20,014 nt of DNA from a virus, in IMG/VR virus record IMGVR_UViG_3300032342_000094, positions 1 through 20,014 of that record. One strand, given 5' to 3'. A program made the position numbers and the translations under genes. The notes under the pieces are model-generated. The model saw nothing but the letters and a program-made list of their open reading frames with translations. It did not search any database and was not told the origin of the DNA. This document shows positions 798-20,014 of the stretch, one piece after another (positions within the stretch are counted from its first letter, which is position 1; every line of letters begins with the position of its first letter).

Positions 798-1016
798 CTA
801 CTGGTCGTATGTCCTTAGATATGTGGACATGAGTACTATGTACAGCGCAGCTTCTTCAAGTCTCTCAAAGAAGTCTGGCTTGGCCCATTCTGCTTGGAGC
901 CTATGGTACTCATCCACAGTCATCTGAGCTACATCTGCGTGGTTCCAGTCATCGTAGCTTTCATACTCCTTGACGTCTTCAATGAATCTCTTCATTGCTT
1001 TTTCATGTGGTGTCAT
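798..1016 (-). CDS. hypothetical small acidic helical protein (72 aa)
   Basis: Residues 1-72 start MTPHEKAMKRFIEDVKEY and end STYLRTYDQ. A GTGAG ribosome site lies just before the ATG. A second in-frame Met at residue 8 could also start translation. The gene lies 4 bases after the upstream 61-aa gene and 11 bases before the 54-aa gene, so it is part of one operon. Predicted mostly helical with many Glu and Asp; no cysteines, no membrane segment. No family recognised. Confidence 0.65.
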   Translation of the reverse strand: MTPHEKAMKRFIEDVKEYESYDDWNHADVAQMTVDEYHRLQAEWAKPDFFERLEEAALYIVLMSTYLRTYDQ

Positions 1017-2791: not shown

Positions 2792-3283
2792 ATGGTACAT
2801 GAAGACCCTCCACCTGGTACTCGATGTACTCCTGAAATAACTAGACGAATAGCTGACGCAGTGCGATTAGGTAGCGCACTAAAATGGGCCGCGGCAGGGG
2901 TGGGTGTCAGCTCAAAACTGGCCCGTAGGTGGAGAGACCAAGGTGCTGTGGATGATTCTATGGGTGCAGACACTTGCTACAGCGCCTTCTACCTAGCCCT
3001 TCAGGCAGCTGAGGCTGATTTAGAGTCTCGGTTGGTTAGAAAGTGGACAAAAGCGCTTGAAGAGGTTGAAGGAGGCTGGAAAGGCATTGAAGCCTTCCTT
3101 CAGAAGCGCTTTAAGGATGATTGGGGCAAAGCACCTGTGGAACTTCAGGCACAGGTACTGGACCTCCGTAAGAGTCCTGAGTTTACTGAGCTTGTGAGAA
3201 TGATAGTGGCAACTATGCCTCCAGAGAAGCAAATAGAGCTCTCTGAGTTTCTTGACAAGTTGAGTGAGAACGATGAAGAGTGA
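2792..3283 (+). CDS. terminase small subunit
   Basis: A 163-residue protein directly upstream of the large terminase. Residues about 15-52 (EITRRIADAVRLGSALKWAA, then SSKLARRWRDQG) form a helix-turn-helix of the type that recognises viral DNA. The rest is helical (residues 64-125), with a charged C-terminal tail rich in Glu that may contact the ATPase. It recognises the packaging site and regulates the large subunit. It is the first gene after the TATA box at 2755-2762, with an almost leaderless start, and it overlaps the large terminase by 11 bases. The assignment rests on the HTH, size and position. Confidence 0.8.
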   Translation: MVHEDPPPGTRCTPEITRRIADAVRLGSALKWAAAGVGVSSKLARRWRDQGAVDDSMGADTCYSAFYLALQAAEADLESRLVRKWTKALEEVEGGWKGIEAFLQKRFKDDWGKAPVELQAQVLDLRKSPEFTELVRMIVATMPPEKQIELSEFLDKLSENDEE

Positions 3284-4577
3284 GTTGGCATATGCTCTCA
3301 ACCCAGCTTTGTTCGCCGAGAAGGTATTACATTTCCGGCCCGACCCGTGGCAAAGGGAGTTACTCATAGAGAAGAGAAGGAACAGCATCCTCAATTGCTC
3401 ACGACAAGTTGGAAAAAGCACTACATCCTCTATTCTCGCCCTCCACTTCGCGTTGTATAGGCCGGGAAGCACGGTTATCCTTATTTCACCGTCGCAGAGG
3501 CAATCACTAGAACTCTACGACAAAGTGTATCAAACTTTTCAAGACCTTCCCCACCGCCCAAAGACATCCGAAGAGTCTGCCTCCTCTCTAGGGATTGAGG
3601 GCGGTGGGCGCGTAATATCACTACCTGCCTCTGAGGCAACGATCAGAGGATATTCAGCAGTATCGTTGATAATCGAGGATGAAGCGGCAAGAGTCCCCGA
3701 TGAACTGAATGCCGCAGTTAAACCCATGCTTGCTGTCAGTCAGGGTAGGCATATTCTGATGTCCTCCCCGGATAAAAAATCTGGCCACTTCTATGAGATA
3801 TGGCGAGATGAGATAACCTACCCTGATTGGCAACGTATTGCTGTCCCTGCTACAGCTTGTCCGAGGATCACACAGAAGTTCTTAGATGCGGAACAAAGGG
3901 AGTTAGGCACCAGGGTGTTTCGAAGAGAGTACATGTGTGAGTTTCTTGATGAGGGTGAGGTCCCACTCTTCATGAGGGATTGGTTCAAGGGTAAGATGGT
4001 TAAAGAGGTTCCCAATGGTGCAAAGCTAGTCAGGCGCTGGGATCTAGCTGCCAGTAAGCCCCTCGAGAGCATGAAAACTGATCCTGACTACACAGCCGGC
4101 GCATTAATGGGCAAGTGGCGAGGCCAATATTACATTATACATGTAAGACACCTTCGCGGGACACCACTAGAAGTGGAAAACACAGTCAAAGTCATGGCCA
4201 TCAATGATTCTAACAAGGGCCCTGTGATGGTTAGGATGGAACAAGAGCCCGGCAGCTCTGGAATCAATACAATTGACCACTACGCGAGAGAAGTTCTCGA
4301 TGGGTATGACTTCAGGGGAGTTAAGACCACAGGGAGCAAAGCTGATAGAGCGGCACCATTGGCTGCTGCAGCTGAGTGTGGCAATGTATTCATCGTCGAG
4401 GGAAATTGGGATATCAAGCACATGTTAGATGAACTGTGCTCATTCCCAGGTGGATCTCACGACGATATAGTAGATGCTTTGTCAGGGGCATTTATGGACC
4501 TACAGACTTCATACCTGCTTCCTGATGATCCAGCAACACTAGGGGAGCTATCAGACATAGGAGGAATGAGCTTTTGA
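3273..4577 (+). CDS. terminase large subunit (packaging ATPase and nuclease)
   Basis: A 434-residue motor protein. ATPase domain: Walker A SRQVGKST at 43-50 after the adenine-motif-like PWQREL (25-30), Walker B LIIEDEA at 132-138 (D136/E137), coupling motif MSSPD at 163-167. Nuclease domain, RNase H fold: RRWDLAAS with D257, RMEQEPGSSG with E323, HDDIVDA with D397, D398 and D401. All key residues are present, so it should be active: it pumps DNA into the prohead through the portal and cuts concatemers. A GTG at 3264 could also start it, but the ATG at 3273 follows a GTGAG-type site. Its TGA overlaps the TTG of the next gene. Confidence 0.95.
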   Translation: MKSELAYALNPALFAEKVLHFRPDPWQRELLIEKRRNSILNCSRQVGKSTTSSILALHFALYRPGSTVILISPSQRQSLELYDKVYQTFQDLPHRPKTSEESASSLGIEGGGRVISLPASEATIRGYSAVSLIIEDEAARVPDELNAAVKPMLAVSQGRHILMSSPDKKSGHFYEIWRDEITYPDWQRIAVPATACPRITQKFLDAEQRELGTRVFRREYMCEFLDEGEVPLFMRDWFKGKMVKEVPNGAKLVRRWDLAASKPLESMKTDPDYTAGALMGKWRGQYYIIHVRHLRGTPLEVENTVKVMAINDSNKGPVMVRMEQEPGSSGINTIDHYAREVLDGYDFRGVKTTGSKADRAAPLAAAAECGNVFIVEGNWDIKHMLDELCSFPGGSHDDIVDALSGAFMDLQTSYLLPDDPATLGELSDIGGMSF

Positions 4578-10675: not shown

Positions 10676-12586
10676 ATGCCTGCACCATTCCAATTCTATG
10701 ACACGGACCTAAACTATGGATGTAAGAATACTCCGGGGTTTTTCAATAACGTCGTACAGTATGGCAATGTTCTTTACGTAGCCCTATGTGGTTACAACGG
10801 GAATTATTACGCACTGAAATACGACGGTGTACACTGGTCAGCCCCCGTGTTAATAGCTAATGTAGACACACCTTGGGATGGTCACAAAGTTGCTGCTATA
10901 GTGAGAAGCAACGATGGTTATTTGCATGTCTTCTATGGTGCCCATGATTCAGCACGTATTCATTATGCTGTTTCAAATGCACCGGATGATATCAGTGCAT
11001 GGACTAATGTAGATTCACGCATAGGTACTCTCTACGGTACATACCCCCTTCCATTCATGGATCCTTACAGTAAGGCTCTCTACCTCTTCTATAGACCACT
11101 CGACAACTATTATTACTGCTACAGGAAGTCAACAGACAACGGGGTAACTTGGGGTACTGTACAACAGTGGTGGAGTGGAACTGGCAAGATGATTTACATG
11201 GTAGACCGTTGCCAATATCTTAGAGAAGTAACACCAGATCACTGGAGACTTTGTCTTACTTATGACCACTACCAGTCTCCTAACAGAAGAAACCTCTACT
11301 ACATAGAGTTTGACTTCACAGATAACCATTTCTACAATATCTCTGGGACTGACCTAGGTACAACCATCACCGGTACTAGTGATGAGACGGACTGCAAGGT
11401 ATTTGACTCAGCTGCGTTAGCCTGTTTTAATGGGTCAACACTTAGGACTCCTTTTGGTGTACTAGCCGCGTTTCCGTATGAATACTCCACAGGACTTTAC
11501 CGTTTCGGTTCGCTTGAATGGAATGGGTCAACATGGACAAATATGAGGACTTTTGGTACACCACCAAGAGCTCAGTGGGAAGTAGTTGCACTTATCATGT
11601 GTGGTACTCGCATTCTCGGTTTAACATATGAGAATGAGGCTGACATCTTAGTCTGGGAGTATGATTGGACTGCTAAGACCTGGACTAATCTACCCGACAT
11701 ACTTACGATGGCTGCTGCTCCTCATGGTGGTACAAACTACTGGTGGAATCTTCACGTTCAACCCACTGATAACCCTATGATTATAGCTTCAGAAGCTGGA
11801 CCTTGCATGAGTACTACTGGCGCATCCCAGGTCATGATAGTCGTAGATGCTCATGGTGAACTTAAGTTCTTGACTGACCACACAGATCTTGGGTTACCAA
11901 CTACCATCAGAAACTACTCAGATGGGTATAGGCTCTTTGACACCGATGCAGATTCATTGCTATTAGCTCTGCAGGGTATTGGAGTACAATCAGGCTGTAT
12001 TTGTTCTACTCCAGGAACTAATACTATTGTCAGTTGGACTGCTGGAAAAGTACAACTTGGACATGGTCATTTACTTTCTATAGCGGCTGGCTCCGTAGAC
12101 TTGACAAGTTTACAGGACGCGAATTATCCACGTAAAGTAATCCTCTACGTAGATGCCGTAGATTTCCTTGTTAAAGCAGTAGCTGGAGCAGCTGCATCAG
12201 CAGTACCAATATCATCCATAGGGAGATTGGCAACTGAACCAGTCCCACCGGATTTCTCAGGTAGCAGTGTTCTAACTGCCAATGATATCACACTTTGCGA
12301 AGTGTGGTTGAGGCCTACCGGAAATAACATCAGTATCATCGATGTTACAGATAGACGGATTGGAACCTATGGAACTGCAAGTGGGACAGCCCTAATTCCT
12401 AATGGCGCTAGTACTGTAACAGTTACTCATCCACTAGGTGTAATTCCATCTCTCATCTATATTGAGGGCAGTGATACAGAGACAAAGACTAGTTGGATAA
12501 CAGACAAGACGGCAACTACCTTTGTTATTAACTTACCAGCTGTAGTTACAGCTAACCGTTTGGTAGAATGGAGAGCTTGGCCATGA
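10676..12586 (+). CDS. beta-propeller receptor-binding / tail fibre protein
   Basis: A 636-residue protein. Residues 1-400 contain repeated propeller-blade text (DGYLHVFYGAHDS, YPLPFMDPYSKALYLFYR, STDNGVTWGT, GLYRFGSLEWNGSTW), like BNR/sialidase-type six-bladed propellers that bind glycans. Residues about 500-636 form a beta-rich C-terminal domain (VTVTHPLGVIPSLIYIEGSD, KTATTFVINLP), like the tips of many fibre proteins. The propeller is paralogous to residues 218-620 of the 1042-aa protein at 15002. Position among head genes, before the connector, is unusual for a fibre. GAGGT lies before the ATG. Confidence 0.75.
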   Translation: MPAPFQFYDTDLNYGCKNTPGFFNNVVQYGNVLYVALCGYNGNYYALKYDGVHWSAPVLIANVDTPWDGHKVAAIVRSNDGYLHVFYGAHDSARIHYAVSNAPDDISAWTNVDSRIGTLYGTYPLPFMDPYSKALYLFYRPLDNYYYCYRKSTDNGVTWGTVQQWWSGTGKMIYMVDRCQYLREVTPDHWRLCLTYDHYQSPNRRNLYYIEFDFTDNHFYNISGTDLGTTITGTSDETDCKVFDSAALACFNGSTLRTPFGVLAAFPYEYSTGLYRFGSLEWNGSTWTNMRTFGTPPRAQWEVVALIMCGTRILGLTYENEADILVWEYDWTAKTWTNLPDILTMAAAPHGGTNYWWNLHVQPTDNPMIIASEAGPCMSTTGASQVMIVVDAHGELKFLTDHTDLGLPTTIRNYSDGYRLFDTDADSLLLALQGIGVQSGCICSTPGTNTIVSWTAGKVQLGHGHLLSIAAGSVDLTSLQDANYPRKVILYVDAVDFLVKAVAGAAASAVPISSIGRLATEPVPPDFSGSSVLTANDITLCEVWLRPTGNNISIIDVTDRRIGTYGTASGTALIPNGASTVTVTHPLGVIPSLIYIEGSDTETKTSWITDKTATTFVINLPAVVTANRLVEWRAWP

Positions 12587-13257
12587 CAACGACATATTGC
12601 ACAGTAGCAGAAGTAGTAGCCAGACTGATGATGCTTGACCCAGCAACTGGTGTAAGAAGGGTCTTGGATACTAATTCCAATCCAACTGCACTAGAAGTTG
12701 AGGCAAGGATCAATGCCTTTGAGGATTACATTGACCAATACACTAGGGACCAGTGGAGGATTAAAGCTTCAGACTTGGAATACTACTCATCAGATAACCT
12801 CTGGCCTGGTTGGTTCCCCCATGAGCAGTATTGCTGGGTAAGGGGCTGGAAGCTTCAAACCTTTAGTGCTGCTGCTGGAGATGTCTTGAAGCTACGCAGA
12901 GGAGACACTTGGACTGACCTGTTGGATGTCAACCATACAGAGGGTATAGGGCAGGACTTCTGGGTGGAATATGACACAGGCATTCTTCACTTCTACAAGA
13001 CCAGACCACAGTATGGTGAACACCAGGTAATGGTTAAGTATCGCTGGGGAAATTCAACTGTACCCAATGATATCAAGAGAGCCTGCTCTAACCTTGCAGC
13101 AGCTGACGTACTCAGGTCTGAGATGTATGCTGTGATAATGGGCCAGGGTGGAGGCTTTACAACTCATAGAGAAGAAACCGCTGACAAGTGGGAAGCAGAA
13201 GCCAAGGATATACTGAACAGGCATCAGAGACTGCCACAACAAATGCTGGGAATGTGA
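12583..13257 (+). CDS. head-tail connector (adaptor, gp6-like)
   Basis: A 224-residue protein starting MTTTYCTVAEVVARLMM. The N-terminal helices with EVEARINAFEDYIDQYTRD and the later helix after PNDIKRACSNLAAADVLRSE are typical of gp6-like/gp15-like adaptors, which bind below the portal and connect head to tail. Between them is a beta-rich part (residues 55-150). The ATG overlaps the previous TGA as ATGA, and GGAG lies before it; an earlier in-frame ATG at 12568 is less likely. It starts the neck/tail gene block. Confidence 0.75.
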   Translation: MTTTYCTVAEVVARLMMLDPATGVRRVLDTNSNPTALEVEARINAFEDYIDQYTRDQWRIKASDLEYYSSDNLWPGWFPHEQYCWVRGWKLQTFSAAAGDVLKLRRGDTWTDLLDVNHTEGIGQDFWVEYDTGILHFYKTRPQYGEHQVMVKYRWGNSTVPNDIKRACSNLAAADVLRSEMYAVIMGQGGGFTTHREETADKWEAEAKDILNRHQRLPQQMLGM

Positions 13258-13913
13258 TGACGCAACCAATAGTCGGATTGAGGGGATCACTAGGTAACCT
13301 TATCTCAAGTGACTATGGTACTATCCATGTTATTAATGGCGGGACTACCAGTTTTAATCATTACCCATTAACCTGGCCTGCAAAAACAGCTTCATGGTTC
13401 TGTAACACTTATAATCCTGGGATTTGGCTTGTAGTAGCATGGATAAATGGGGTGGGTAAAAACTACATGCGAGGTGATCCACCTAGTCAAGATTTCACAC
13501 TTGACCCAACTACTACGACACTTGCTTATTTCTACGGGGATGCAACTCTGGATGCACATATATTACCGATGCCAGTAGTATTCTGGGACGACGAGTTCAG
13601 AGAACTGCAAGGCTTTACCCCTGTGGTTAAAGTCTATCAGGTTACTTCTACAGCTACTATGAAAGGCTTTGGTTATGGGTGGAGGAAGATAAAGACCCAG
13701 TTGACCATTGATATCAAATGCAGAGACAATGCTAAAGCTCAGCTTGCAAAGGAAGAAATAGCTAGGGTCTTAGGAGATAAGCGGAAGGGACCATTTGCAG
13801 ATTGCGACGTAATGGAGTATACCCAGGGAACCCAAAAAGCCGGCTATAGTGGATTCTACTGGTGGATCATCGAGGTCATATCCTGGCAGATAAGGAAGCC
13901 GGTAGCAATATAA
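13257..13913 (+). CDS. tail-terminator-like protein, copy 1 (with inserted beta domain)
   Basis: A 218-residue protein; the ATG shares bases with the previous stop (TGATG). Residues 107-218 (VVFWDDEFRELQGF... YSGFYWWIIEVISWQIRKP) show a strand/helix/strand pattern that fits tail-terminator proteins, which cap the tail tube next to the head. By eye 63 of 112 residues equal the C-terminus of the 1042-aa protein. The short segment GLRGSLGNLI at 7-16 also matches. Between the two matching parts this copy has about 85 extra residues (22-104) of beta-rich text, absent from the other copy. Terminator function is inferred from position and pattern. Confidence 0.6.
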   Translation: MTQPIVGLRGSLGNLISSDYGTIHVINGGTTSFNHYPLTWPAKTASWFCNTYNPGIWLVVAWINGVGKNYMRGDPPSQDFTLDPTTTTLAYFYGDATLDAHILPMPVVFWDDEFRELQGFTPVVKVYQVTSTATMKGFGYGWRKIKTQLTIDIKCRDNAKAQLAKEEIARVLGDKRKGPFADCDVMEYTQGTQKAGYSGFYWWIIEVISWQIRKPVAI

Positions 13914-13934
13914 GGAAGTGAGTAAGTGGTAGCA
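13896..13934 (+). repeat. duplicated gene junction, copy 1
   Basis: CCGGTAGCAATATAA, then GGAAGTGAGTAAGT and the first codons (GTAGCAAC). The same order occurs at 18113-18154 with nearly the same bases. The copied segment spans the end of the terminator-like gene, the ribosome site and the beginning of the next gene. Confidence 0.7.
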
Positions 13935-14426
13935 ACAGTCTATCTAAGTGAGTCAAATGGTGCTGGTCCAACAGTAACGGACAATATCACCAATTGCAAC
14001 TACGGGAACACGGATGCGTTTCAGCTTGTTCCGGCAACCTGGCCTATACCGGTGTCGGAAAACTCTTACACCAAATGGTGGAGGATCAAGCTAGATGCAT
14101 TGGGCGGCTCTAACAAGATAGCCAACCTTCAGATTTGGAAATCTGTTGGAGCTTACGTAACAGGTGAAGGAATTCAGACCAACTTGAGAACATCTGGGTA
14201 TGTCAACACAACCTATGTGACTCCTACAAAGACAACCTATACCAACCAGGTTATGCCAATTGCAGCTCCTGGCTCAGCAAACCTAGGTATAGCTGGAGTT
14301 TTGTCTGGAGAGTTGACTGCACAAGGTTACAGTGACTACATGGTGTCTCAACTGCAGACAACTGGATCAACGCCACCTGGCAACGCCAACCAAAAGACTC
14401 TTACGTTCCAGTACGACGAGAGCTGA
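13926..14426 (+). CDS. beta-rich structural protein (166 aa)
   Basis: A 166-residue protein with GTG start after GGAAGTGAG. Text is beta-rich with many Thr, Asn and Gly (VYLSESNGAGPTVTDNITNC, KWWRIKLDALGGSNKIANLQ). Its start region is a copy of the start region of the tail tube gene (MVAT versus MAT), but the proteins do not align further. Similar short beta-rich proteins occur in the tail or neck part of other viruses. It may be a tail or decoration protein; no firm family. Confidence 0.6.
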   Translation: MVATVYLSESNGAGPTVTDNITNCNYGNTDAFQLVPATWPIPVSENSYTKWWRIKLDALGGSNKIANLQIWKSVGAYVTGEGIQTNLRTSGYVNTTYVTPTKTTYTNQVMPIAAPGSANLGIAGVLSGELTAQGYSDYMVSQLQTTGSTPPGNANQKTLTFQYDES

Positions 14427-14751: not shown

Positions 14752-15002
14752 GACTCTTGGTAAGATTTGGCACCTGTGATAGATGCGGTCGTTGCTGCGA
14801 AGGGTGTAATAACTTCGTTGCCCCAGATTGCTCTATCTATGAGACTAGAGGTGAAGGTTGTAGGAATTGGCCTCCACACCCATTTGAAAGACCAGACTAC
14901 TGTGCTTACCACTTCTATGACTTAGAAACAGGAGAAGAGGTCTTGGGTTATAAGGACAAAGAGAGTTTAGAGATTTATGCACCTGTACAGGAGGTTTGCT
15001 GA
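14748..15002 (+). CDS. CxxCxxCC-type zinc/iron-binding protein
   Basis: An 84-residue protein with nine cysteines: 10, 13, 16, 17, 20, 28, 38, 52 and 84. CDRCGRCC at 10-17, followed by CSIYETRGEGCRNWPPHP and YCAYHF, matches the CxxCxxCC (YkgJ-type) domain, thought to bind Zn or an Fe-S cluster. It is coupled to its neighbours: ATGA overlap upstream, TGATG overlap downstream with the 1042-aa adhesin. A metal-binding protein within a tail block could be a tail part (an iron-sulfur cluster is known in the lambda tail tip protein gpL) or a modifying enzyme for the adhesin. The link is inferred. Confidence 0.75.
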   Translation: MRLLVRFGTCDRCGRCCEGCNNFVAPDCSIYETRGEGCRNWPPHPFERPDYCAYHFYDLETGEEVLGYKDKESLEIYAPVQEVC

Positions 15003-18000
15003 TGGCAATGCGTCTTTATCTCAGAACTGCTCCTGCTATAGAACCTAAGCCTAACACTAGACAAGAGGCAGACTACTCTATTACTCAGTGGCTTACAAAC
15101 ACAGATGGGGGTCAGGATGGAAGTGATGCAATTTACCCACTTAAGATGGTAGGTAACCATGGCACTGCTGGTAGGGTGAATTATCAGACATTTACTGAGC
15201 CAGGAGCTACACATTACGGCTGGTGTAAAGCATTTGTATCTCGTCCACTTGCTGCTCAGACTATAAGTGGAACCTTCACATTCGTTGCAGATTTTGAAGA
15301 AGGTTCTGTAGTACAGAATATGTATCCACATCTGAACATCTACGTGTGGAAGTCTGATGATTCTGGAGTTAGAGGCTACTTATTTGCTGATGGAGTTACT
15401 CCCACCGGAGAGTCAGCAGTAGAAGCAGATACAACTAGGATGTCTAAACAGACTTTCTGGACTGCACAAGCCATTTCTAGCCTAGCAGTGTCAGAGGGGG
15501 ACGTAATAGTCGTTGAGATTGCTTGGTGTGACAAGAGTACTAAAACTTCGGCTTATGAGCATGGGTTCGACTTTAACGGTCCAACTCTACAAGGTGCAGA
15601 TGCTGGTTGGTATGACAGCTACCTTGAGTTCTCAATGGACATTAAACTCAAGACGACATTCCAATTCGCAGAAGATATGATTGACACCCCCGGGTTTTAT
15701 AACAACTGCGTCCAAGTTGGTAACGACCTGTATGTGGTCTACCAGGGTTGCAGTTTTGCATACTTTGCTGTGAAGTATACAGGTGGAGTATGGGGTCTAC
15801 CAACTAGATTTGCTGTTGAAATTCTACCAGAAGATGGACATAGGGCACCAGCAATAGTTCGTAGTGCAGATGGGTATCTTCACGTATTCTTTGGTGCACA
15901 TGATGGTCCTGTGAAATACTACCAGTCTATGAATCCTAATGACGTTACAGGTTGGACTGATGTAACTACCCGTATATCAACGCCTTGGGGTAATGGTACA
16001 TACCCTCTTCCAATCATAGACCCATTGACGAATAAGCTCTTTTTGTTCTTCAGAAATGGAAACCAGTATTCACAAGACTTCATCTCCTCTACTGATAATG
16101 GAACTACTTGGACACAAACTCCAACCACCTGGTTGATAACTGATGGAAGTACCCATCTTCCATATCTTGTTGACAGGTTGCACTATATAGTCAATGAGGG
16201 CGGTACAAGTTACTTGTATATCCACTGGGACCTACATGACACAGCTATAGGCAAGAGACGTGACCAATACATAGCCAAGATTAATCTAAGCACTCTTGAT
16301 GTATATAACATGGCTGGAACTAACCTAGGCCCACAGGTAAGCTATACTGAGATGGAAAACAACTGTAAGATATTTGACTCCGGCACCTTGGCTAGTTACA
16401 ATGGTGGCACGATAATTACTCCAGATGGGACATTAGCAGTGTTTCACTATGAGTATTCAGCCGGCCTTTATCGCTTGGCATCCTTAGAGTGGAATGGCTC
16501 AGCGTGGGTTAACCAAGCTACAATTTGCACTGTGGATAGGTTGACCTGGGTTAATAACGCGCTCTTTGTGCTAAGTGGGGTAACTCATGCCCTGCATGAT
16601 GGGAACAGCGGACCAATCGAAGACTGGTATTACAACTGGACTACACATGCTTGGACACAGGGGACAGACTTCGTAACTGTGAGTGAGTTACAATACCCAG
16701 ACAGCTCTGACTACTGGCGTAACTGCAAGAGACAACCAACTCAGACTCCTATATTCTTGTATCAGGATGGTACAAACGTTAGTGATGTCAATAACAGGAT
16801 AGGTAGAGTTCTCTGTGCTGGTTATGTAACACCTAGTGGAACACTAGCCAAATTGGTTAATGGCTCTGTACTAGTTGCAAATACTTACTCTTTCACAAAG
16901 ACCTCAGACTCAAGATTCAAGAAGACCCAGTCTATCACTAAACTAGCGGATACAGCGTTCAAGAAGACCTCATTCTTCAACCTGCTATCAGATGCCGCAT
17001 TTATTGCAGGTGGTGTTACAACTAGGTCCTTCAACCTATTGTCAAATGTTGCTTTCAAGAAGACCATGACGCTCACTAAAGCATCTGACGTAGCCTTCAA
17101 GAAAGTCATGTCTATTACAAAATCCTCAGACTCAAGATTCAAGAAGACGCAGACTTTTACTCAGCCATCAGATACTCGGTTCAAGAAGACGCAGAGTTTC
17201 ACTAAGTCCGCTGATTCACGTTACCTCAAGCCCACTATATTCACCAAGTACTCTGATGTAGCTTTCAAGAAGACTATGAGCTTCACTAGGCTTTCAGATG
17301 CTGTTTTCCAAGCTGGTGGAGTGTTTACTTACTCCTTCATCAAGTATGCAAACACCGCATTCAAGAAAACCATGTCTCTTACTAAGTCATCTGACTCTAG
17401 GTTCTTGAAGACCAGTAGCCTTACGAAGTTTTCAAATACGGCATTCAAGAAGGCCATGTCCCTTGTCTTAAACTCAAACTCTAGATTCATGAAGACTGGC
17501 ACCTTTACCAAGGCCTCAGATGTGGCTTTCAAGAAGTCTATGAGTTTCACTAAGGCTACTGACTCAAGATTTAGAAAAACACAGTCATTCAACGAGCTCT
17601 CAGATACTAGGTTCCTTAAGCATCAATCTTTCAATGAGCTATCAAACTCATATTTCACCCGCAGAAGCTCATTTAATAAATTCTCAGATGCAGTATTCTA
17701 CTGGGCTGGTCCTACCTTCAACTATGCTGAAGGATTGAGGGGACTCGTTGGGCAGCTAATAAGACAAGTGTACACTCAGCCTATTACCCCTGTGGTATAT
17801 TGGGACGACGAACCCAGGGAACTTCAGGGGTTTAAGCCAATCATCAAGGTATATACTCCCACTACCGAAGTAGATATGGTAGGCTTGGGCTATGGACAAA
17901 GGAAGATAGCACACACAGTCATAGTTGACATTAAAGGCAGAGACAACCAGGGAGTATTCAACGCTGTGAATGAAGTTATCAGGGTGCTAGGGAGATATAG

Positions 18001-18130
18001 GCGGGCTCCCTTCATAGGGTACGACATGATAGAGTTCAATGATGGAACCCAACTTGCCGGTTACAGTGGGTTCTATTGGTGGACTGTAGAAGTTACCGTC
18101 TGGCAGATAAGGAGACCGGTAGGCATATAA
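15002..18130 (+). CDS. adhesin / propeller / repeat / terminator-like fusion (1042 aa)
   Basis: Four parts can be seen. Residues 1-215 (RLYLRTAPAIEPKPNTRQEA ... AAQTISGTFTFVAD, HLNIYVW) look like a domain found in other phage minor tail proteins. Residues 218-620 are a propeller paralogous to that of the 636-aa protein (DGYLHVFFGAHDG, STDNGTTWTQ). Residues 630-902 are about nineteen 14-residue repeats of SFTKxSDxxFKKTQ type, basic. Residues 911-1042 repeat the terminator-like domain of the 218-aa protein (931-1042, 63 of 112 identical). GGAGG 8 bases before supports the ATG at 15002; a TTG at 14996 is less likely. A virion protein carrying its own receptor-binding parts is inferred. Confidence 0.75.
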   Translation: MAMRLYLRTAPAIEPKPNTRQEADYSITQWLTNTDGGQDGSDAIYPLKMVGNHGTAGRVNYQTFTEPGATHYGWCKAFVSRPLAAQTISGTFTFVADFEEGSVVQNMYPHLNIYVWKSDDSGVRGYLFADGVTPTGESAVEADTTRMSKQTFWTAQAISSLAVSEGDVIVVEIAWCDKSTKTSAYEHGFDFNGPTLQGADAGWYDSYLEFSMDIKLKTTFQFAEDMIDTPGFYNNCVQVGNDLYVVYQGCSFAYFAVKYTGGVWGLPTRFAVEILPEDGHRAPAIVRSADGYLHVFFGAHDGPVKYYQSMNPNDVTGWTDVTTRISTPWGNGTYPLPIIDPLTNKLFLFFRNGNQYSQDFISSTDNGTTWTQTPTTWLITDGSTHLPYLVDRLHYIVNEGGTSYLYIHWDLHDTAIGKRRDQYIAKINLSTLDVYNMAGTNLGPQVSYTEMENNCKIFDSGTLASYNGGTIITPDGTLAVFHYEYSAGLYRLASLEWNGSAWVNQATICTVDRLTWVNNALFVLSGVTHALHDGNSGPIEDWYYNWTTHAWTQGTDFVTVSELQYPDSSDYWRNCKRQPTQTPIFLYQDGTNVSDVNNRIGRVLCAGYVTPSGTLAKLVNGSVLVANTYSFTKTSDSRFKKTQSITKLADTAFKKTSFFNLLSDAAFIAGGVTTRSFNLLSNVAFKKTMTLTKASDVAFKKVMSITKSSDSRFKKTQTFTQPSDTRFKKTQSFTKSADSRYLKPTIFTKYSDVAFKKTMSFTRLSDAVFQAGGVFTYSFIKYANTAFKKTMSLTKSSDSRFLKTSSLTKFSNTAFKKAMSLVLNSNSRFMKTGTFTKASDVAFKKSMSFTKATDSRFRKTQSFNELSDTRFLKHQSFNELSNSYFTRRSSFNKFSDAVFYWAGPTFNYAEGLRGLVGQLIRQVYTQPITPVVYWDDEPRELQGFKPIIKVYTPTTEVDMVGLGYGQRKIAHTVIVDIKGRDNQGVFNAVNEVIRVLGRYRRAPFIGYDMIEFNDGTQLAGYSGFYWWTVEVTVWQIRRPVGI
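16889..17708 (+). repeat. in-frame 42-bp (14-residue) repeats in the adhesin
   Basis: About nineteen units with consensus S[FL]TKxSDxxFKKT[QM]. Two variants alternate loosely: SDSRFKKTQ and SDVAFKKTM. Two units (about 672 and 774) are lengthened to 18 residues with AGGV. The DNA repeats are diverged, so it is an old array kept by selection on the protein. Each unit carries about two net positive charges. Likely a stiff beta-type shaft. Confidence 0.85.
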
Positions 18131-18154
18131 AAGGAAGTGAGTAGGTATGGCAAC
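18113..18154 (+). repeat. duplicated gene junction, copy 2
   Basis: CCGGTAGGCATATAA, AAGGAAGTGAGTAGGT and ATGGCAAC at the end of the 1042-aa gene and the start of the tail tube gene. Same layout as copy 1 at 13896-13934. Confidence 0.7.
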
Positions 18155-19106
18155 GGGTGCCTTAGCAAATCTCAAATGGGGCCTTGAAACCACATTTGCG
18201 ACGGAAGCAACGAACTTGAACAAAGTCTTCGGGTATGCTGTGGAAATCACAGCTTTGGACTTCGATAGCAGTCCATCCCCTAGACGGGGGCTTGGGAACA
18301 GGAATCTACAAGCTATGGCGTATGGAGAGTTTAAGGGTTCGATGTCATTGAAGTTTGACCTCGTAGACCCTTTCATCTTCAGAGTCATGACTGGTGGATA
18401 TGCAAAGTCAGGTGTAGGGCCATTCGTCTATGACTTTGCGGAAGCACAGACACTGCCTTCATTCACCATCAAAAACTACATAGACAACATTGATGGTGGG
18501 GCTGATACCTTGAGGACATTCCTAGGGTGCATAGTGACTGACTACACGATAGATATCGCTGTAGGAGATGAGCCAGTTTCGGTCACTCTGAATATTGCCT
18601 TTGCGAAGGTTGTAGATGCAGCAACAGTTCAAGCACCTATATTCCCGACGAATACACCCTTGATGTTTACGCAAGGTGAGCTTAAGAAAGCTGGAGCTGC
18701 GCAAACATTCATAGAGAATGTATCAGTCAAGGGTGGACAGAACTCTGTGATGAAGACATATCTCGGATCTAGGTTCCCTACGAGAGCCAGGTTTGGGGAC
18801 AGGGAGTATGAGATGACCACACTCCACTACTATCAGTTACCCTCAGTCTTCTTTGATGAACACTGGGGAGCTGCGGCAGGACCCACAGAACAGGGTCCAG
18901 GGCCTAAGAAAGCTTGGATAGTCACGTTGACTCCAGAGATCGCAGGACAGGTAGCAGACACCTATACCTTCACATTCACAGACGGGTATGTCGTGAAAGT
19001 GTCTCAACCTGAGAAGGTTGGAGAGGACATAATGGAGGAAGCCACACTCATCCTAACGTCAATGATGGTGTCGGTTTCCTCGGCAACAGCAGAACCGATA
19101 TGGTGA
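18147..19106 (+). CDS. tail tube protein
   Basis: A 319-residue protein starting MATGALANLKWGLETTFATE, typical for tail tube proteins, which often begin with a similar text about a 'G..ETT' segment. It has many beta strands and Thr/Val/Asp, with FEEL-like text DSSPSPRRGLGNRNLQAM near residue 38. Good ribosome site GGAAGTGAG. It polymerises into the central tube of the tail. Placement before the chaperone frameshift pair and tape measure is the classic order of long-tailed viruses. Length is somewhat above the usual tube protein, so an extra domain may be included. Confidence 0.8.
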   Translation: MATGALANLKWGLETTFATEATNLNKVFGYAVEITALDFDSSPSPRRGLGNRNLQAMAYGEFKGSMSLKFDLVDPFIFRVMTGGYAKSGVGPFVYDFAEAQTLPSFTIKNYIDNIDGGADTLRTFLGCIVTDYTIDIAVGDEPVSVTLNIAFAKVVDAATVQAPIFPTNTPLMFTQGELKKAGAAQTFIENVSVKGGQNSVMKTYLGSRFPTRARFGDREYEMTTLHYYQLPSVFFDEHWGAAAGPTEQGPGPKKAWIVTLTPEIAGQVADTYTFTFTDGYVVKVSQPEKVGEDIMEEATLILTSMMVSVSSATAEPIW

Positions 19107-19111
19107 GCAAG

Positions 19112-19429
19112 ATGTTCGAAAAGGAGAAGTCAGTAGACCTGAAGCAATTCGGGTTTGAGCAACCAGCGCTTGTAAAAAGACTGTCAGCGGGGGAAAAGAG
19201 GGACCTGGACAATGCTTTGACTGAGGTCAACAGCATTAAGATGAAGGGAACCGAGGTAGTCGGTGACCTTCAACCTGGGGATACCGCCCTTATTGCCGCT
19301 AAGGCATACTACAAAGGTGGACCATTCAAGGTCGATGAACTAGCAGGCCTTGATTGGGAGATCGTTGCACGGATAGCTGAAGCCGGGGACGAGCTCAACC
19401 GCCCTTTAGTACAAAGGGAGGAGAGCTAG
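19112..19429 (+). CDS. tail assembly chaperone, zero-frame product (gpG-like)
   Basis: A 105-residue protein from the ATG at 19112 (GGTGAG 4 bases before); an ATG at 19100, overlapping the tail tube stop, would give 109. It is helical and charged (KSVDLKQFGFEQPALVKRLS, YYKGGPFKVDELAGLDWEIV). It sits between the tail tube and tape measure, the place of lambda gpG. Near its end the zero frame reads CGC CCT TTA GTA: a slippery site, so part of the ribosomes would shift to make the longer GT-like product. It probably binds the tape measure while the tube assembles. Confidence 0.75.
   Translation: MFEKEKSVDLKQFGFEQPALVKRLSAGEKRDLDNALTEVNSIKMKGTEVVGDLQPGDTALIAAKAYYKGGPFKVDELAGLDWEIVARIAEAGDELNRPLVQREES
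19402..19408 (+). promoter_or_regulatory. -1 ribosomal frameshift site
   Basis: C CCT TTA in the zero frame fits X XXY YYZ exactly. The -1 frame is open from 19381 through 19671 and has no usable ATG, GTG or TTG start in its first 50 codons. A 5-bp stem (19423-19427 with 19439-19443) lies 14 bases after the heptamer and could stimulate slipping. Confidence 0.75.
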
Positions 19430-19671
19430 TCCTAAGGAAGCTCAAATTCGCCATAGAGCACAAGACCGCCATAAATGACAAACAGCAACAGGAGCTGTTT
19501 GTCAGGGCCCTCCTCCTCACTAGGCTTACTACTAAGCAGATTGAGGAGGACATGAGTGCCCCAGACATGGAGTTGCTAATGTCACTATACGACGTTCTCA
19601 AACTGAGAGAAGGAGACCTCCTAGCCTATGCTGTGAACAAAGGTTTGGTGGGTGAGAAAGGTGGCCACTAG
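19408..19671 (+). CDS. frameshift extension of the tail chaperone (gpGT-like, T part)
   Basis: After a -1 shift at 19402-19408, reading goes on for 87 codons (STKGGELVLRKLKFAIEHKT at the front, KGLVGEKGGH at the end). The fused product would be 186 residues if started at 19112. The T part is helical and charged, without cysteines. In lambda the T part lets gpGT recruit tube protein to the tape measure. Its first Met is far inside the ORF (DMSAPDMELL), so independent translation of the whole segment is unlikely. Confidence 0.75.
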   Translation, partial: STKGGELVLRKLKFAIEHKTAINDKQQQELFVRALLLTRLTTKQIEEDMSAPDMELLMSLYDVLKLREGDLLAYAVNKGLVGEKGGH

Positions 19672-20014
19672 GAAGAAAGGTTCTCTTGATGTCAGCTTTG
19701 ACATCAGGAGTGTTAACCCAGCTGACATAGCTAAACAGCTAAAAGCCACAGAGAAGCTCATAGCAAAACAGACCCATGATCTCAAGCAATCCTATATCAA
19801 AAAGGAGAAGGCGGAGACCGCACTAGCTAGCAGATCTGAGAAGAGAAGAATTGCTTCTGAGAATGAGATTAGTAAGAAGCGCATGAACACCCACAAGAAG
19901 AATGTTGAAGGATATGCAAGAGAGGGTTTAACCTTCAAGGAGGGTCGGGGCCCCAGCATGAAGAATGCTATTGGTCTCTCAAACAGTGTGTTTCAGCAAG
20001 CTCAGACCATGCTT
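19661..20014 (+). CDS. tape measure protein, N-terminal part (runs off the window)
   Basis: Starts with GTG at 19661 (VATRKKGSLDVSFDIRSVNP), with GGTGAG 4 bases before and an overlap of 11 bases with the chaperone T frame. 118 codons are visible and the frame is still open at the window end. Text is basic, Lys/Glu-rich and helical (residues 25-75), as expected for a tape measure N-terminus. The position right after the chaperone pair supports this. The length, which sets tail length, cannot be seen here. Confidence 0.7.
   Translation, partial: MATRKKGSLDVSFDIRSVNPADIAKQLKATEKLIAKQTHDLKQSYIKKEKAETALASRSEKRRIASENEISKKRMNTHKKNVEGYAREGLTFKEGRGPSMKNAIGLSNSVFQQAQTML

Follow-up and report, generated by a model that had tools for sequence, protein, structure and literature searches.

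In phage lambda the tail assembly chaperones G and GT are encoded by -1 overlapping frames that follow the tail tube gene, and a low level of slippage yields the fusion with the T domain (PMC5009743); the G:GT ratio and the binding partners have been shown experimentally in that system. Shifts to the -1 frame in the tail chaperones of archaeal viruses have already been reviewed (PMC5009743, PMC8211752), and the records of the haloarchaeal siphoviruses HVTV-1, HCTV-1, HCTV-5 and HCTV-2 annotate the chaperones as a joined CDS at the same place, where the chaperone pair stands between the tail tube and the tape measure, with a -1 shift at an X_XXY_YYZ heptamer (G_GGA_AAG, G_GGA_AAC or A_AAA_AAC). 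A -1 frameshift has been demonstrated for one cellular gene of archaea, the alpha-L-fucosidase of Sulfolobus (PMC8211752), an enzyme for which a full-length product is needed and not a ratio of two products. The heptamer C_CCU_UUA has been proposed for the -1 shift between CP and RdRp of Giardia lamblia virus, a eukaryotic dsRNA virus with other genes, a mechanism disputed because conservation of the site between strains is lacking (PMC8230311).

The locus described here belongs to a virus record of 20,014 bases (IMGVR_UViG_3300032342_000094), analysed at its full length and referred to as the window; its features are collected in Table 1. Two overlapping frames, the second in -1 with respect to the first, are found directly 3' of the gene for the major tail tube protein. 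With a probability that we put at about 0.88, they represent a tail assembly chaperone pair of the lambda G/GT type, predicted to be expressed by -1 programmed frameshifting in a tailed archaeal virus. The pair resembles that of lambda in its layout, with the difference that it was found similar to none of the known chaperone families; with the haloarchaeal viruses it shares the probable gene order, the predicted kind of shift and the probable archaeal host, but not the heptamer.

Table 1. Coordinates of the features at and around the chaperone locus (window numbering).
Feature	Position	Strand	Basis or remark
Major tail tube protein, 319 aa	18147..19106	+	Pfam PF18906 Phage_tube_2, E 1.5e-10
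gpG-like tail assembly chaperone (109 aa), product of frame 0	19100..19429	+	ATG 19100, TAG 19427-19429; ORF, alignment to vir335/G002 counterparts
Overlap, frames 0 and -1 both open, 49 nt	19381..19429	+	ORF reading; codon-usage switch inside
Weak Shine-Dalgarno-like GGGGA, possible stimulator	19385..19389	+	-6.4 kcal/mol with anti-SD, P 0.077 vs window coding background
Slippery heptamer C_CCT_TTA	19402..19408	+	In phase with frame 0; counterparts CCCTTTG (vir335 and 4 contigs), CCCTTTT (G002)
Hairpin CCCUUU-AGUAC-AAAGGG, 5' arm is the slippery site	19402..19418	+	z -2.95 for 19398-19424
T domain, read in -1 once the shift has occurred (87 aa); predicted GT fusion 190 aa	19408..19671	+	No ATG/GTG/TTG before 19552
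Downstream hairpin, 5-bp stem GAGCU/AGCUC (19423-19427 with 19439-19443) plus UCC/GGA	19423..19443	+	-8.0 kcal/mol, z -0.68
Start of next gene, probably tape measure	19652..20014	+	Position only

An earlier note on this DNA had described a zero frame ending at 19429 and a -1 frame open from 19381 to 19671 with no normal start codon near its beginning. This description is correct: the -1 frame opens after a TGA at 19378-19380, runs to the TAG at 19669-19671, and has its earliest ATG, GTG or TTG at 19552. Codon log-odds, trained on the other genes of the window, favor frame 0 up to about position 19385; beyond about 19400, and for as far as the second ORF extends, they favor the -1 frame. The optimal switch point lies at 19394-19406, with a flat shoulder that extends to about 19424. 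Since the preferred frame changes inside the overlap, both halves can be regarded as real coding sequence, with the transition at the heptamer. Both frames stop at a TAG, a codon that terminates only one more gene (798-1016, minus strand) among those inspected; it might have a meaning in, for instance, a pyrrolysine-using host.

The exact C CCT TTA heptamer reported in the same note is also present in the overlap, in phase with frame 0. It is the sole in-phase X_XXY_YYZ of the frame-0 gene, and it starts 28 nt ahead of the end of the frame-0 stop codon. In-phase heptamers of this form occupy 14 of 5952 codon positions in the genes of the window (0.24%), so that the overlap, with its 15 in-phase positions, would contain one or more by chance with P ~0.035, or 0.022 if Y is restricted to A or T; a single in-phase heptamer in the overlap is thus suggestive, and by itself carries modest weight. 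The UUA codon at the site is the rarest leucine codon of the virus (36 of 363), and the CGC codon that precedes CCU is also rare.

According to the frameshift reading, most ribosomes would stay in frame 0 and produce G, while a minority, with CCU in the P-site and UUA in the A-site, would slip back by one base, so that tRNA-Pro and tRNA-Leu re-pair with CCC UUU. Reading would then resume at AGU ACA AAG in the -1 frame to yield GT, with the junction ...ELNRPL/STKGGEL..., and the predicted tryptic peptide across the junction would be IAEAGDELNRPLSTK for a slip of both tRNAs or IAEAGDELNRPFSTK for a slip in the P-site only. The rare UUA, together with the rare CGC before CCU, could add a pause. 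If the pair works as in lambda, G would be expected to coat the tape measure, with the T part recruiting tail tube subunits, and the G:GT ratio, set by how often ribosomes slip, would serve tail assembly (PMC5009743). That ribosomes slip here, how often they do so, that the tape measure is the partner and that the pair acts in tail assembly are inferences.

The earlier note had proposed alignment with homologous viruses as a check, and in two of them the overlap and a C_CCT_TTN heptamer do recur at the corresponding codon. One is vir335 (BK063680.1, a Methanomassiliicoccales virus), in which a 133-aa ORF directly after a related tail tube is overlapped by an open, T-like -1 frame, with CCCTTTG in phase. 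Four other contigs carry the identical site, so the split in vir335 is not due to a slip of assembly there. The other, a second divergent IMG/VR virus reached with a portal-alignment scan (IMGVR_UViG_3300014039_000036, hereafter G002), has a tail tube, then an ORF and an open -1 frame, with CCCTTTT in phase; the tail tubes of G002 and vir335 are 37% identical. Local alignment scores between the frame-0 proteins are 57 (window-vir335), 56 (window-G002) and 118 (vir335-G002), with shuffled sequences at about 27; because these scores exceed those of all the shuffles (0 of 500 in each case), the three proteins can be considered homologous. The shift codons correspond in the three viruses: CGC CCT TTA (R-P-L) in the window, GAC CCT TTG (D-P-L) in vir335 and GGC CCT TTT (G-P-F) in G002. 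The C CCT TT needed for the slip is preserved though the flanking residues vary, and the codon before proline always has C in the third position.

Between the T domains of vir335 and G002 homology is clear (score 141 vs 27 for shuffles). The T domain of the window is collinear with a profile of the two, weakly (6.4 bits, equalled by 5 of 2000 shuffles); no significant similarity was seen in pairwise comparisons of the window T domain, so that its significance comes from the two-sequence profile alone. Overall, the two relatives share with the window a homologous frame-0 protein, a collinear T domain and the heptamer; they differ in having longer overlaps and a GGAGGG about 10 nt 5' of the heptamer, and in sequence, the identity being 17-27%. 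It is because these relatives keep both the layout and the heptamer at the corresponding codon that we favor the -1 frameshift reading.

The same evidence bears on the other ways in which the two frames could be understood. The -1 ORF could be a separate gene, translated alone from an internal or unusual start, such as the ATG at 19552 behind AGGAGG, or by coupled re-initiation near the TAG through the strong SD-like GGGAGGAG that lies a few bases 5' of it. Such a scheme would agree with the SD-led starts usual among the genes here, and with the vir335 record (BK063680.1, 42060-42685, minus strand), where the chaperone is annotated as two hypothetical proteins, the second being a 59-aa product with an internal start. 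However, in none of the frames does GGGAGGAG have an ATG, GTG or TTG near enough to be used, while initiation at 19552, where AGGAGG does stand just before the ATG, would produce only 39 aa, so that over half of the T domain, collinear as it is with the relatives, would be missing; furthermore, G002 is without a start near the overlap, and two separate genes give no reason to expect that three viruses have a heptamer at the corresponding codon. Separate translation is, on balance, improbable. As for vir335, the open stretch of its -1 frame reaches back far beyond the annotated 59-aa start and no frameshift is annotated in the record; the split of the chaperone gene in that record looks wrong, which is a warning for annotation pipelines.

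An insertion or deletion introduced in assembly or sequencing, by which a continuous gene would have been artefactually broken, might be suspected where there is only one contig and neither IMG/VR nor the genome set contains a near relative. The -1 layout is, however, the same in vir335, the four further contigs and G002, and it would be surprising for an error to land exactly on an in-phase heptamer; we regard this reading as very improbable. A frame split in one contig could also resemble genuine decay, that is, a recent frameshift mutation with no recoding. This we find hardly credible, as the coding signal is intact in both frames and divergent viruses have the split at the same codon. The pair is thus best explained by programmed -1 frameshifting.

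A classical -1 frameshifting signal has a 3' structure at 5-9 nt from the slippery site, and no stable structure was found at that distance from the heptamer. The 5-bp stem to which the earlier note had drawn attention exists and begins 14 nt past the heptamer, as described, but its strength does not go beyond chance. Neither this compact stem (z = -0.68) nor a longer fold at 19409-19479 (z = -0.72) is better than shuffled sequences, and the stem is for this reason unsupported as a stimulator. A stronger structure, overlooked in that note, is a 6-bp hairpin that contains the heptamer and is unusually stable for its composition; a ribosome at the slip site would already have melted it.

Upstream of the heptamer, at a distance of about 12 nt, the window has a GGGGA that is weaker than the corresponding element of the relatives. 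At the chaperone sites of vir335, G002, HVTV-1/HCTV-5 and HHTV-2, a GGAGG occupies positions -15 to -11, and the site of HCTV-1 has AGGGGAG as SD-like element; no SD-like element at this fixed spacing is present at the sites of BJ1 and HCTV-2. For five viruses, without G002, the combined probability is P = 0.006 (Fisher), for a pattern that was noticed post hoc; three further sites together give P = 0.12, and all eight sites P = 0.004. The fixed spacing between the SD and the heptamer resembles that of the stimulator in E. coli dnaX. An upstream SD as a stimulator of slippage is a hypothesis, to be taken as a lead only. That archaeal ribosomes slip by -1 at C_CCU_UUN in viruses that infect methanogen-related archaea with the assistance of an SD-like element at a dnaX-like spacing is a tentative proposal, against which the odds still lie.

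With respect to the neighboring genes, the earlier note had placed the pair between tail tube and tape measure. The tail tube is confirmed by its PF18906 match, and also by matches to the HCTV-1 protein located just upstream of the annotated chaperone pair (1.7e-9) and to the tail tube of vir335 (1.8e-6). The next gene is taken from its position as the probable tape measure, since only its first 121 codons precede the contig end; this ORF, from 19652 onward, gave no family match above noise. Searches with the portal and capsid proteins among 50,697 phage records retrieved archaeal viruses only (HVTV-1, HCTV-1, HCTV-5, HCTV-16 and vir335, and in the case of the capsid also vir519, a Methanofastidiosa virus). 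These matches agree with the suggestion of an archaeal host made in the earlier note, and such a host is likely; a scan of genome contigs with the portal alignment returned nothing from which it could be named.

Other features of the window can be recorded here. The terminase (3264-4577) looks mosaic, with an N-terminal half nearest to Thermus/Meiothermus phages and a C-terminal half nearest to the Methanomicrobiales virus vir524. Between divergent genes, TTTATATA at 2755-2762, 37 nt before the ATG at 2792, is a plausible archaeal TATA box; genes in the window use SD-led starts, and no tRNA or Rfam family was found in it. Two probable fibre proteins with BNR repeats (sialidase-like), encoded at 10676-12586 and 14996-18130, are paralogous (40% identity over 378 aa), the second having also many short FTKxSDxxFKK-like repeats. 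The C-terminus of this 1044-aa protein recurs, with 57% identity, as the last 113 residues of a 241-aa protein (13188-13913), in what looks like a domain fusion.

Database comparisons of the chaperone itself gave little. There was no family match in Pfam or PHROGs, similarity being seen to the unnamed genes of vir335 and G002 alone; tblastn of the GT fusion against phages gave no match, and neither G nor T of the window has significant similarity to the haloviral chaperones of HVTV-1 and HCTV-1. Direct IMG/VR scans gave no relatives for the tail tube, for the -1 ORF or for the capsid, nor did the genome set for the tail tube; the terminase scan yielded one locus, at which no relative of the tail tube was found. 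AlphaFold models are too poor for comparison, both for G by itself (pLDDT 40) and for G with three relatives (pLDDT 44).

Among other archaeal viruses, unannotated -1 ORFs overlap the gene in the chaperone position of psiM2 (13209-13948, with an in-phase AAAAAAG at 13712) and of BJ1 (32680-33284, with an in-phase GGGAAAC at 33099), and a strict heptamer is absent from vir519 and HHTV-2. HFTV1 differs (17693-18308), as the ORF that overlaps the gene behind its tail tube lies in the +1 frame, a possible +1 shift; a +1 shift has reportedly been found in HSTV-2, to which this layout is likened. The earlier note had implied that -1 frameshifting is rarely described in archaeal translation. The shift reading stands with the relatives, while the novelty is smaller, HVTV-1, HCTV-1, HCTV-2 and HCTV-5 being already annotated in this way: the window pair joins a known, mostly predicted kind, and is not its first case in an archaeal virus. 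In the literature searched (subscription literature was outside its scope), there is no description of the vir335/window lineage or of a C_CCU_UUN site in archaeal viruses.

These results take predicted -1 chaperone frameshifting beyond the haloarchaeal viruses, into a lineage whose relatives are viruses of methanogen-group archaea. The C_CCU_UUN sites, which divergent viruses retain at the same codon, constitute a compact and testable set of natural archaeal frameshift sites. If the participation of the SD-like element proved true, SD-stimulated frameshifting of the bacterial style would be common to the archaeal translation machinery.
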